The notes under the pieces are model-generated. The model saw only the letters and a list, made by a program, of their open reading frames with translations, was not told the origin of the DNA and ran no database searches. 64,000 bases of DNA, from NCBI RefSeq assembly GCF_011751865.2, contig NZ_CP061770.1:1984001-2048000 (forward strand). The letters are read 5' to 3'. The position numbers and the translations under genes were made by a program. Of this stretch, positions 1,746-7,895 are shown piece after piece; position 1 is the first letter of the stretch; each line of letters begins with the position of its first letter. Source of the stretch: Salinibacterium sp. ZJ70. GTDB taxonomy: Bacteria > Actinomycetota > Actinomycetes > Actinomycetales > Microbacteriaceae.

Positions 1746-2112
1746 CCGCGGACCTTTCGCGCCTCGAGCTCGGCGATGAGCTGGGGTACGACCGTGAACA
1801 CATCGCCCACGACACCGAAGTCCGCGACGTCAAAGATCGGGGCGTCGGCGTCGCGGTTGATCGCGACGATCGTCTTGGCGGTCTGCATGCCCGCCTTGTG
1901 CTGGATGGCGCCCGAGATGCCGAGCTGCGGCGACACAGAGACGCCTGTCTGCCCCACCTGGGCCGACTGCTCGATGTAGCCCGCGTCGACAGCGGCACGG
2001 GAGGCGCCGACGGCGGCGCCGAGCGCATCCGCCAGCTGTTCGACGAGCGCGAAGCTCTCCCGGGATCCGAGTCCGCGACCGCCCGAGACGACGCGCTGGC
2101 GCCCGCCGATCT
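1742..2112 (-). pseudogene. etfA: Electron transfer flavoprotein alpha subunit, 3' fragment
   Basis: Only the C-terminal FAD domain of ETF alpha remains, about 120 residues. It begins near [10 protein letters not shown] and continues through VGQTG.SVSP, the [11 protein letters not shown] signature, and APIF...DFGVVGD, all classic ETF-alpha FAD-binding motifs. The N-terminal half and any etfB partner are missing: upstream of about 2112 the sequence becomes an nmo gene on the opposite strand. The stop overlaps the start of the cytochrome b gene by ATGA, which suggests an operon passing electrons from ETF to a membrane haem protein. No start codon with a ribosome site is visible, so the fragment is presumably dead. 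Confidence 0.85.
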
Positions 2113-2923
2113 CTTGAAGGAGATCGAGCGCGCCCGCACGATGACCGACAAGCCGATCGGCGTGAACCTCACGATCCTGCCGAGCATCAACCCGCCGCCC
2201 TACGCCGAGTACCGCCGCGCCATCATCGACGCGGGCATCACGGTGGTCGAGACGGCGGGCTCGAGCCCCGAGGTGCACATGGACGACTTCGCGTCGGCCG
2301 GCATCAAGGTGATCCACAAGTGCACGTCGGTGCGCCATGCGCTGAAGGCCGAAGCGGTGGGTGTGACGGCGGTATCGATCGACGACTTCGAGTGCGCCGG
2401 TCACCCCGGCGAGGACGACGTGCCCGGGCTCGTGCTCATCCCGGCGGCGGCGGATGCGCTGTCGATCCCGTTCATCGCCTCCGGAGGTTTCGCCGATGGC
2501 CGCGGGTTGGCCGCTGCGCTGACGCTGGGTGCTGACGGCATCAACATGGGCTCGCGCTTCATGTGCACGGTGGAGGCGCCCGTCGCGCAGGCGGTGAAGG
2601 AACGGATCGTTGAGGCGTCGGAGCTCGACACCAACCTCATCTTCCGCTCGCTGCGCAACACCGCACGCGTGGCGAAGAACGCGATCTCGGATGAGGTGGT
2701 CGAGATCCTGGCGGCCGGTGGCCAGTTCCCCGACGTGCAGCCGCTCGTCGCCGGTGCCCGCGGCCGCCGCGTCTTCGAAGAGGGCGACCTGGACGCCGGC
2801 ATCTGGACCGTCGGACAGGTGCAGGGCATCATCCGCGACATCCCCACCGCGGGCGACGTCGTGCGGCGCACCGTGGCGGATGCGCAACGGGTGCTGGCGG
2901 AGCGGCTGGGGTTGTTCGGGTAG
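2098..2923 (+). pseudogene. Nitronate monooxygenase, 5'-truncated copy 1
   Basis: This reads as an FMN-dependent nitronate monooxygenase (2-nitropropane dioxygenase family) lacking its first 60 or so residues. It runs from [10 protein letters not shown] through [14 protein letters not shown], the family motif AGHPGEDD, the FMN phosphate-binding stretch IASGGFADG, and [11 protein letters not shown] to a normal TAG stop at 2923. The family normally starts 50-70 residues earlier and is about 310-340 residues long. The open frame continues upstream only because it is antisense to etfA. ATG 2141 could start a shortened protein, but there is no convincing ribosome site. It is the longest of three copies in the window (see 4926-5355 and 7200-7895). 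Confidence 0.85.
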
Positions 2924-2980
2924 GGGGCTGACAGTGCGGCCGCCGGTTGACGGACATCCCGCTCGGGCGCTCTCCCTCGC

Positions 2981-2986
2981 TATGGT
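2981..2986 (+). promoter_or_regulatory. -10 element TATGGT of a probable leaderless promoter
   Basis: TATGGT lies exactly 6 nt before ATG 2993, so transcription would begin on or next to the start codon. No purine-rich ribosome site precedes the ATG. The same TATGGT plus 6 nt arrangement recurs in front of the Fic gene at 3653. Confidence 0.5.
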
Positions 2987-2992
2987 CGGCGT

Positions 2993-5430: not shown

Positions 5431-5448
5431 AAGGGTAAAGTCGCAGTT

Positions 5449-6663
5449 ATGAGCGACGATCGCCTCTCCTTCTGGCCAGCCCACGGCATCGAGACCCTCC
5501 CGTGGCAGCAGGAAGTGCGCGGCGGCACCCGCGAGGACCGGATGCTGCGGTCCGTCGATGCGACCATCCCGCCTTTCATCCGCGAGCTCGACTACATGCC
5601 GCCGCTTCCGGTGACGCTCGACACGGAGAGGGCGTTGCTCGCGGTAGCCCAGGCCGACACGGACGCCGAGGGTCACTCTGCCGCTCTGAGCCGCTTCATG
5701 GTCCGCTCTGAGTCCGCCGCGTCGTCCAAGATCGAACGGATCAACGCATCCGCCCGCGACTACGCCAAGGCACTCGCCGGCAACAAGAGCAACATGTCGG
5801 CCACCAGCATGGTTGCCGCCTCTACCGCCCTCCATGAGCTGATCACCACGGTTGGCCAGAACGCACGCTTCGACCTCGACTCGCTCATGAGCGCCCACCG
5901 CGCGCTCATGGCCGAAGACGCCGACGACGCTGACTACGCCGGGCGGCTGCGCGACATGCAGAACTGGATCGGCGGCAGCGACCGTTCCCCTCGCGACGCA
6001 CTCCACGTTCCTCCTGCGCCGAAGCGGGTCGAAGAACTCATGGACGACCTGATCGCCTACCTCAACCGGGACGACGTTCCCGTGATGACGCAGGCCGCGA
6101 TCGGGCACGCCCAGTTCGAGTCCATCCACGCCTTCACCGACGGCAACGGCCGCATCGGCCGTGCCCTCGTTGCCGCCGTACTGCGCCGCCGGGGCGTCAC
6201 ACGCAACGCCGTCATTCCGCTCGCCAGCGGCCTGCTCGCCAGGCGCGACGACTACTTCGCCACACTCGGCCTCTACCGCCAAGGAGACCCGGCGCCGCTC
6301 ATCCGACTGTTCGCCCAGTCCGCCCGCGCGGCCGCCGAATGCTCCCGCGACACCATCGCCCGATTGAAGGCTATGCCCGGGGGGTGGGCTGCCGAGCTGA
6401 AGCCGCGGGCGGGATCCGCTGCGTCCGCCATCATCCAGGCGTTCTACAACCACCCTGTCATGCGAGCCGATGACATTGAAGCCGTCGCTGGTTCTACCGC
6501 GGCCGCCTACCGTGCGATCGACCTGCTCGTCGACGCCGGTTTCATCGAGGAGATCACCGGACGCAAGAAGGACCGCGTCTGGGCGGCATCCGAAGTGATG
6601 GCCGAGCTCGACGATCTCGACCGCCGCATCCAGGCGGCCATGCACGAAGGGACTCGCCGCTGA
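5449..6663 (+). CDS. Second Fic family protein with winged helix
   Basis: The 404-residue protein has the same architecture as the first Fic gene but is well diverged. Its catalytic loop is HAFTDGNGRIGR (227-238): the usual HPF proline is alanine, while the catalytic His, Asp, Asn and Arg are kept. The inhibitory motif region reads S92-x3-E96-R97, with arginine where G or N is normal, so autoinhibition may be altered. The winged helix is at about 325-385. ATG 5449 (MSDDRLSF) is chosen because it follows the TAAAGT box; a start at 5419 would fall inside the operator. Its TGA overlaps the ATG of the DUF1643 gene by one base, so the two are co-translated. It lies between nmo copies 2 and 3. Confidence 0.92.
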   Translation: MSDDRLSFWPAHGIETLPWQQEVRGGTREDRMLRSVDATIPPFIRELDYMPPLPVTLDTERALLAVAQADTDAEGHSAALSRFMVRSESAASSKIERINASARDYAKALAGNKSNMSATSMVAASTALHELITTVGQNARFDLDSLMSAHRALMAEDADDADYAGRLRDMQNWIGGSDRSPRDALHVPPAPKRVEELMDDLIAYLNRDDVPVMTQAAIGHAQFESIHAFTDGNGRIGRALVAAVLRRRGVTRNAVIPLASGLLARRDDYFATLGLYRQGDPAPLIRLFAQSARAAAECSRDTIARLKAMPGGWAAELKPRAGSAASAIIQAFYNHPVMRADDIEAVAGSTAAAYRAIDLLVDAGFIEEITGRKKDRVWAASEVMAELDDLDRRIQAAMHEGTRR

Positions 6664-7181
6664 TGACCGTCGAATGGACCTGGGAGAAAACACCGGACGG
6701 GCAGAGCCGGTTCGTGCTGGGCACCGTAGGCGAGAATCCGCTGATCTGCTTCGGCATCAACCCGTCTACCGCAGTGCCCGGCCAGCTGGACCCCACCGTG
6801 ACACGCGTGAGCAAGCACGCCGCCCGCACGGGACATGACTCGTGGACCATGCTCAACGTCTACCCACAGATCTCCACCGACCCGAAGGGGATGCACCTCG
6901 AGCTCGACCCCCAACTCAAGGAGCTCAACGAGAGGCACATTGCCGAGCATGTCGCCGGCCGGTCACTGACGATCATGGCCGCCTGGGGCACGCTCGTTGA
7001 GTCCCGCCCGCACCTGCGCCGACTGGCCCACGACATCGCCGCACTCCCCGAACTTGCGAACTGCACCTGGGTCTCGCTCGGCACCACCACCAAGGCGGGC
7101 CACCCGAGGCACCCGCTGTATGTGAAGGGCGACGCTCCCCTCATCCCGTTCGACATCGCCACCTACACGACCGCCACCTAA
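6663..7181 (+). CDS. DUF1643 family protein
   Basis: The 172-residue soluble protein shows the DUF1643 pattern: an N-terminal strand with R.VLG, the core C.GINPSTA...LDPTVTRV, then W.MLNVYP and a C-terminal AAWG / GTT..GHPRHPLYV section. The family has no settled biochemical role and is frequent in phage, plasmid and defence-island settings. The start codon shares a base with the Fic stop codon (TGATG), so expression depends on the Fic mRNA. It could be a partner of that Fic protein, but this rests only on coupling. The gene ends 19 bp before nmo copy 3. Confidence 0.85.
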   Translation: MTVEWTWEKTPDGQSRFVLGTVGENPLICFGINPSTAVPGQLDPTVTRVSKHAARTGHDSWTMLNVYPQISTDPKGMHLELDPQLKELNERHIAEHVAGRSLTIMAAWGTLVESRPHLRRLAHDIAALPELANCTWVSLGTTTKAGHPRHPLYVKGDAPLIPFDIATYTTAT

Positions 7182-7199
7182 GCACTCCGCCCCCGAACC

Positions 7200-7895
7200 G
7201 CCTCACCATCATCGACGCCGGCATCACGATCGTCGAGACCCGAGGTGCACATGGACGATTTAGCGGGCGCGGGCATCAAGGTGATCCACAAGTGCACCTC
7301 GGTGCGCCACGCGCTGAAGGCCGAAGCTGTGGGCGTGACGGCGGTGTCGATCGACGGCTTCGAGTGCGCCGGTCACCCCGGCGAGGACGACGTGCCGGGC
7401 CTCGTGCTGATCCCCGCGGCGGCGGATGCGCTGTCGATCCCGTTCATCGCCTCCGGAGGTTTCGCCGACGGTCGAGGCCTGGCCGCTGCACTGGCGCTCG
7501 GTGCTGACGGCATCAACATGGGCTCGCGCTTCATGTGCACCGTGGAGGCGCCCGTCGCGCAGGCGGTGAAAGAGCGGATCGTGGAGGCCGCGGAGCTCGA
7601 CACCAACCTCATCTTCCGCTCGCTACGCAACACCGCCCGCGTCGCCAAGAACGCCGTCTCGGACGAGGTGGTCGAGATCCTCGCCGCCGGCGGCCAGTTC
7701 CCCGACGTGCAGCCCCTCGTCGCCGGTGCCCGCGGACGCAAGGCCTTCGAAGAAGGCGACCTGGACGCCGGCATCTGGACCGTCGGCCAGGTGCAGGGCA
7801 TCATCCGCGACATCCCCACCGCGGGCGAGGTCGTGCGCCGCACCGTGATCGAGGCGCAGCGAGTGCTGACGGAGCGACTCGTGCAGTTCGGGTAG
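7200..7895 (+). pseudogene. Nitronate monooxygenase, 3' copy 3
   Basis: The homology begins near 7200 (a segment reading [12 protein letters not shown]) and then suffers a deletion of about 14 bp relative to copy 1 near 7238, which breaks the frame. From 7245 it is open and complete: [44 protein letters not shown], through to TAG at 7895. The region after the stop shares a few bases (TAGGGG-CTG) with the region after copy 1. It lacks the N-terminal third and so is not a working enzyme. It immediately precedes the promoter region of the Lamassu-like operon. Confidence 0.88.

Follow-up and report, generated by a model that had tools for sequence, protein, structure and literature searches.

Three nitronate monooxygenase gene ends alternating with defence-type modules in Salinibacterium sp. 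ZJ70, and their possible origin by stepwise displacement

The nmo ends and their cargo

We examined an array lying in a 64,000-nt stretch of DNA (the window) from Salinibacterium sp. ZJ70, whose genome is a single contig of 2.84 Mb. In this array, three 3' ends of a nitronate monooxygenase gene (nmo), all on one strand, alternate with a hypothetical gene and a Fic gene, with a Fic gene and a DUF1643 gene, and then with a Lamassu-type operon (Table 1). An initial annotation had placed the partial nmo copies at 2098-2923, 4926-5355 and 7200-7895, and they proved real, with small shifts in coordinates. Judged against six intact reference genes of relatives, homology starts at 2102 in copy 1 (at 2095 with four of the six references and at 2047 with one), at 4925-4957 depending on the reference in copy 2 (about 4937, the value with three of the six), and at about 7197 in copy 3; in every copy it reaches the stop codon (2923, 5355 and 7895). 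Nucleotide identity over aligned columns was 90.4% between copies 1 and 3, 85.3% between copies 1 and 2, and 84.6% between copies 2 and 3, and the copy 3 protein was 93% identical to that of copy 1 over 216 aa. No internal stop interrupts copy 1, which reads openly to 2923, and alignment revealed deletions of about 57 nt and 2 nt in copy 2 and one of 14 nt close to the 5' edge of copy 3. A whole-genome search (E <= 0.001) returned a single further nmo-like match, a distant paralogue (G000:C1:479537-480409).

The seven cargo genes all share the nmo strand, and domain calls with Pfam profiles and defence-gene calls with PADLOC bore out the cargo described in the initial annotation. The hypothetical protein had matches (E <= 1e-12) in 14 of 398 genomes of the family, the host included. 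In the operon, the PADLOC E-values were 3.1e-79 for LmuB, and 7.5e-7 for LmuA and 2.1e-9 for LmuC, both weak; with LmuA, LmuB and LmuC matches side by side, the predicted operon has the gene content asked of a Lamassu system, in which the need for LmuC depends on the type. Its G+C content is 0.59-0.62, against about 0.66-0.75 in the adjoining kilobases. A second low-G+C stretch of this kind (0.585-0.60) occurs at 53001-55000 of the window.

Table 1. Features of the array and its flanks, with positions in the window
Feature	Position	Strand	Basis or remark
ftsY (core gene) flanking the island on the left, incomplete in the window	2-721	-	88-90% protein identity to all eight genus mates
Cytochrome b561-like gene, leftmost in the catabolic cluster	734-1555	-	tblastn; may start further to the right
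C-terminal portion of etfA, fused to nmo copy 1	1742-2101	-	Pfam ETF_alpha
nmo copy 1	2102-2923	+	Pfam NMO; homology start; 5' end lost with etfA deletion
Cargo 1a, hypothetical protein, 191 aa	2993-3568	+	No Pfam match
Cargo 1b, SoFic-like Fic protein	3653-4870	+	Pfam Fic; PADLOC SoFic, E 5.9e-70
nmo copy 2, 3' fragment	4937-5355	+	Alignment; homology start
Cargo 2a, SoFic-like Fic protein (Fic2)	5449-6663	+	Pfam Fic; PADLOC
Cargo 2b, DUF1643 protein	6663-7181	+	Pfam DUF1643
nmo copy 3, 3' fragment	7197-7895	+	Alignment
Cargo 3, Lamassu-type operon (LmuA-, LmuC-, LmuB-like)	8266-12124	+	PADLOC
tetR, 5' end lost	12295-12814	-	Pfam TetR_N (from profile position 14), TetR_C_24
Alcohol dehydrogenase-GXWXG-DUF4334 fusion gene, 5' end lost	12785-14148	+	Domain scan; M. 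fluvii comparison
Histidine phosphatase gene flanking the island on the right	14156-14710	+	Pfam His_Phos_1

The divergence of the copies was estimated by the NG86 method. Synonymous divergence (dS) was 0.30 between copies 1 and 3 (230 codons; nonsynonymous divergence, dN, 0.044; dN/dS 0.14), 0.40 between copies 1 and 2 (140 codons; dN/dS 0.20) and 0.42 between copies 2 and 3 (140 codons; dN/dS 0.22), while two intact orthologue pairs of nmo gave dN/dS values of 0.12 and 0.19. A binomial test on rounded counts of silent versus other changes rejected neutrality, with an excess of silent changes (P 6e-13, 9e-8 and 2e-7). For comparison, dS of ftsY between the host and its eight genus mates was 0.35-0.60 (240 codons). 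These values indicate that the copies diverged as working genes and were cut late, and that the split between them is about as old as that between species of the host genus. In a tree of 29 DNA rows the three copies formed one clade (bootstrap 100, SH-aLRT 99), nested among nine other rows that all belong to the genus of Microbacterium fluvii (98/96). When differences were counted in blocks of 40 nt, no clear switch emerged, and a mosaic structure between the copies was rejected.

The left junctions of the fragments are abrupt and lie inside nmo. Relative to copy 1 (0), the 5' edge lies at about 330-364 nt in copy 2, which starts 66 bp past the Fic stop, and at 109 nt in copy 3, which starts 15 bp past the DUF1643 stop. 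On the 3' side, BLAST similarity between the copies stops within a range from 5 nt upstream to 3 nt downstream of the stop codon; inspection by eye extends the match of copies 1 and 3 by a few bases past the BLAST end. We counted shared 8-mers in the 100-nt flanks and compared them with random pairs drawn from the window. Pairs of left flanks shared 0, 1 and 1, with 32% of random pairs sharing at least one, and the flanks to the right of the three stops shared none, so that no edge motif common to the fragments stood above chance. To judge from these sequences, the att-like common edge expected of a recombinase is absent from the array.

The host island and the nmo-tetR gap in relatives

In all eight genus mates, ftsY adjoins the phosphatase gene at a distance of 41-238 bp (measured between match ends), and in the window about 13.4 kb, from the cytochrome b561-like gene to the DUF4334 fusion gene, lies between them. 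No nmo match (E <= 1e-60) was found in any of the eight, and no exact direct repeat of at least 9 nt was found between the island edges (140 nt each). The stretch between ftsY and the phosphatase gene is best explained as an acquired catabolic island (cytb-etfA-...-nmo-tetR-...-adh-DUF4334). The gene order of M. fluvii (L034, L255) is cytochrome b561-like gene, etfA, a second ETF-domain gene (probably etfB), acyl-CoA dehydrogenase and nmo, followed by tetR, aldehyde dehydrogenase, AMP-binding ligase and the alcohol dehydrogenase-GXWXG-DUF4334 fusion gene, and the window retains both ends and the middle of a cluster of this type. The cytochrome b561-like gene adjoins etfA in M. fluvii (L255) and also in G635 (L256; tblastn). 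About 9.5 kb separate etfA from nmo in M. fluvii, oriented to each other as in the window, where the two are fused; likewise, the 5'-truncated tetR is fused to the 5'-truncated alcohol dehydrogenase gene where M. fluvii has about 5.2 kb. Because M. fluvii has about 9.5 kb at the first of these junctions, the 5' end of copy 1 was lost through the etfA::nmo deletion, which need not involve cargo, and cargo adjoins the 5' side of copies 2 and 3 only. The initial annotation was thus right that all three copies lack the 5' end, keep the stop and share one strand, but the cause of the loss differs among them.

Several further copies of these neighbouring genes were seen. Two diverged cytochrome b561-like genes, 63% identical, flank the array (734-1555 and 14825-15880), and a third occurs next to an etfA at G000:C1:~496-498 kb. 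Another locus (L176, G014:C1:2824500-2844499) carries the etfA-cytb561 pair twice near nmo, inverted, at 11824-13837 and 15722-17735, about 1.9 kb apart.

All cargo of the array sits inside the gap between nmo and tetR, the usual convergent neighbour of nmo, which is found beside it in relatives at 65-86% tblastn identity. We measured this gap, between match ends, in 24 genomes with the ancestral convergent pair: 9 of the 13 with nmo from a 295-genome genus, 3 from a 345-genome search, 10 from a 60-genome genus, Nocardioides sp. YR527 and Actinotalea. We excluded G628, where nmo had no tetR match beside it, G471, where the contig ends, and those genomes whose nmo fell below 79%, in which no tetR match was seen; out of 80 nmo loci in one set, tetR was looked for in L033-L060 only. 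The gap was empty (15-533 bp) in 21 of the 24, which gave the single intact nmo with an empty site that the initial annotation had proposed to look for. In the other three (G474, G509 and G536; L206, L207 and L209) it measured 1180-1452 bp and held one gene on the nmo strand. The gap genes of G509 and G474 both match DUF559, one of them also AbiEi_4 just below the cut-off, and the remaining one shares 97% DNA identity with that of G509 and looks frameshifted. The three genomes fall in one clade of the DNA tree, and their occupied gaps may go back to a single event. By eye, the nmo-tetR gaps of L165, L210 and L274 are full of palindrome-like repeats.

A close nmo is itself uncommon, being present in 16 of the family's 398 genomes (host included) with a limit of E <= 1e-90 and in 13 of 295 and 10 of 60 genomes of two genera at E <= 1e-120, and we rejected a family-wide nmo hot spot on this ground. 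Since these limits would miss short fragments, a 458-nt 3' query from copy 3 was run against 345 genomes of one genus, with two candidates scored per genome; it matched 22 places in 20 genomes, none with a close second nmo end, the second places in G235 and G789 being at 70% and 74%. A wide hot spot along the lines of the initial annotation is therefore not supported: cargo does occur in 3 of 24 gaps, but these belong to one clade and repeated nmo ends were not found in the 345 genomes. In addition, a self-repeat survey of 140 stretches of at least 11 kb (139 loci and the window; 2.68 Mb, some overlapping) revealed 14 repeat pairs in 9 stretches. Three of the 14 come from the nmo copies, and the only other three-copy family was an array of nucS fragments (L189), described below.

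Stepwise displacement and competing accounts

We propose that stepwise displacement by homology-anchored illegitimate joining stacked the defence-type modules in the nmo-tetR gap, an account that we consider likely but not proven and to which we assign a probability of roughly 0.5. In each step, DNA of a related strain would bring an nmo allele of its own with its own cargo behind it. The incoming DNA would pair on one side, through nmo and upstream genes or through tetR and downstream genes. An illegitimate join at its other end would cut one nmo copy somewhere arbitrary inside the gene and leave the severed 3' end on the same strand, as a scar separating cargo units. The 5' part of copy 1 and most of the catabolic cluster would have gone in later deletions. 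This proposal builds on the fragments, their species-level divergence under purifying selection, their scattered 5' edges and their 3' edges at the stop codon, together with the ancestral gene order and the empty sites in relatives. Scattered 5' cuts and a common 3' side fit arbitrary joins inside nmo with cargo already present in the nmo-tetR gap. The donors, the order of events, the one-sided homology and the illegitimate joining are what we infer from these observations, as is the place of stacking, either this host or the lineage that donated the island; the left flank of copy 1 is gone, so the homologous side is not visible there.

Several observations weigh against stepwise displacement. 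The three-copy clade has no outside member, so the donors would all have to come from one unsampled clade; six positions are common to all three copies and absent from five outgroups; and such clustering within one genome is what duplication predicts. The best outside protein among the 120 matches listed was 88% identical, and the copies did not group with alleles of other strains, the host genus being sparsely sampled with nine genomes. A full-length leading copy, expected of sequential displacement, is missing, copy 1 being truncated by the etfA fusion. The 345 genomes yielded no array of nmo ends and no intermediate, the nearest being the one-gene gap insert of three genomes, none of which has a repeated nmo end, and no donor with nmo beside this cargo was found. 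The separate import with cargo put forward in the initial annotation is accordingly upheld only in that the copies diverged as functional genes with their own substitutions and deletions; they form one clade, and donors are inferred, none having been found.

The clustering of the copies favours the main rival, namely that the whole nmo was duplicated in one unsampled lineage, diverged under selection, received cargo and then lost its 5' ends. Such old tandem paralogues would form one clade without an outside member, as the copies do, and the island does decay by deletion, as the etfA::nmo (about 9.5 kb) and tetR::adh (about 5.2 kb) fusions illustrate. We nevertheless consider this account rather unlikely. 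No tandem nmo was seen among 65 nmo stretches (28 + 16 + 12 + 9, with M. fluvii and A. bracchium each counted twice and G235 at two places), none of which had a second nmo of at least 50%. Moreover, the 5' end would have to be lost late on three separate occasions, in two cases with a cargo stop left intact just 15 and 66 bp away, and all three functional copies would have to persist for about as long as the species of the genus have been apart.

Less probable still is accretion by an unseen or trans-acting recombinase that integrates at the nmo 3' end and brings a replacement 3' end. Every copy retains its stop codon and loses similarity right there, and a gene-end array with a fixed edge is known in the same family (the nucS array). 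The initial annotation had allowed for an unseen integration system, but the left edges differ and the flanking 8-mers are at chance level, which speaks against a site-specific one. In line with the initial annotation, no integrase, transposase or recombinase was found among the scanned cargo genes (Pfam, PADLOC), a further point against site-specific integration. Finally, ordinary att duplications are unlike the repeats here, which are 0.4-0.7 kb long and 10-15% diverged.

Two Campbell-type integrations, in which circular DNA carrying a 5'-truncated nmo and cargo entered by a single crossover in nmo, seem quite improbable. They would yield one full nmo followed by 5'-truncated same-strand copies with cargo between them, and circular intermediates are proposed for rhs loci in an excerpt of PMC2935791. 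However, crossovers should leave mosaic copies, and the block counts lack a clear switch; megablast gave no match to phages and, against plasmids, pieces of 1-3% of the query in seven records, and a plasmid or phage origin was rejected on these short matches. Recent local tandem duplication of the nmo 3' end, to which the same gene, same strand and close spacing might point, is rejected, since the copies show species-level divergence from one another (dS 0.30-0.42) with strong purifying selection (dN/dS).

Related systems and other gene-end arrays

The comparisons with published systems draw on excerpts of the cited papers. In the orphan immunity arrays of the Vibrio cholerae type VI secretion system (T6SS; Kirchberger et al. 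2017, PMC5361080), each new arrival in a series displaces the gene in residence; in a worked example the 3' end of the older effector is shifted back and the neighbour gene kept. The authors propose homology-facilitated illegitimate recombination, without an integrase, and argue against duplication from the lack of within-genome clustering. End product and proposed mechanism are alike in the nmo array, where several 5'-truncated same-strand copies are each followed by different genes. In contrast, the repeated gene of the T6SS arrays is a toxin effector with its immunity gene, rather than a metabolic enzyme with unrelated cargo, and T6SS alleles group with other strains, whereas the nmo copies group together. 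Displacement of rhs C-terminal tips (Jackson et al. 2009, PMC2935791) is the version with a circular intermediate. As in the nmo array, partial copies lie downstream as direct repeats that differ in length, the majority lacking a start and some frameshifted. The Serratia rhs cores share 91.6% protein identity within a locus, much like nmo copies 1 and 3, while the E. coli cores are identical within a locus, unlike the nmo copies; the variable part is the gene's own tip in rhs and consists of separate genes here. Homology-facilitated illegitimate recombination (PMC2884548, PMC3240628) involves one homologous anchor, one illegitimate junction and new genes beside the anchor; in the nmo array, the abrupt left junctions inside nmo would be the illegitimate side of such an event. 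Islands of the integrase family targeting the dusA 5' end (PMC4482086) also use the end of a protein gene, but carry an integrase at one fixed site, neither of which is seen here. By analogy, the nmo array appears to work like the T6SS and rhs displacement systems, and would be a displacement-type array at a metabolic gene.

In a single search of open-licence literature, judged from the entries listed, nmo was not named as an integration site in the matching records; an excerpt of PMC11719660 holds both nitronate monooxygenase and defense island, used separately. The word nucS was likewise absent among the matches listed in a single such search for nucS as an integration site.

To our knowledge, the growth of defence islands without an integrase is poorly known. 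If stepwise displacement holds, the gene-tail scars would record the breakpoint of each arrival and their divergence would date the donors; scar counts in genomes would make the homology-anchored share of island growth measurable, and a mechanism so far proposed for toxin loci would extend to plain metabolic genes. A broader idea, which we regard as doubtful, is that an ordinary metabolic gene end may serve as an integrase-free landing pad that recurrently stacks defence modules by sequential displacement, and that gene-end arrays at different genes (nmo, and nucS with a fixed edge motif) may represent a general growth route of defence islands in these Actinobacteria.

The nucS array (L189, G105:C4:81500-93500) spans 1443-8293 of its stretch and comprises a full nucS (1443-2135, minus strand) and four N-terminal nucS fragments (5305-5457, 6311-6448, 7200-7352 and a short one at about 8221-8293). 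Between the fragments lie genes for a D12-class DNA methyltransferase, an unassigned 504-aa protein, a DUF1643 protein and an HNH protein that carries homing-endonuclease-associated repeats. Three of the fragments share their end codon and continue into an identical 17-nt motif that is absent from the full nucS, features from which site-specific or homing-type accretion appears likely. A search of viral contigs gave no match to the extended motif, and the 17-nt motif had none in the window.

None of 11 stretches with DUF1643 had an nmo match that would link the Fic2-DUF1643 pair to nmo elsewhere, and a close Fic2 relative (80% identical) occurred in one of them (L182, G150:C1:1827000-1839000). 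Compared post hoc, stretches fetched through DUF1643 contained repeats in 3 of 10 cases, L189 among them, versus 5 of 129 other loci (Fisher P 0.013). In L182, a short accessory block next to the Fic2-DUF1643 pair lies between the two copies of a 241-nt direct repeat of 86% identity (6711-6951 and 8962-9202), which includes the 5' end of a small gene. Two more diverged direct-repeat pairs surround the DUF1643 locus of L180 (G106), at 4262-5146, 7636-7936 and 11154-11673.

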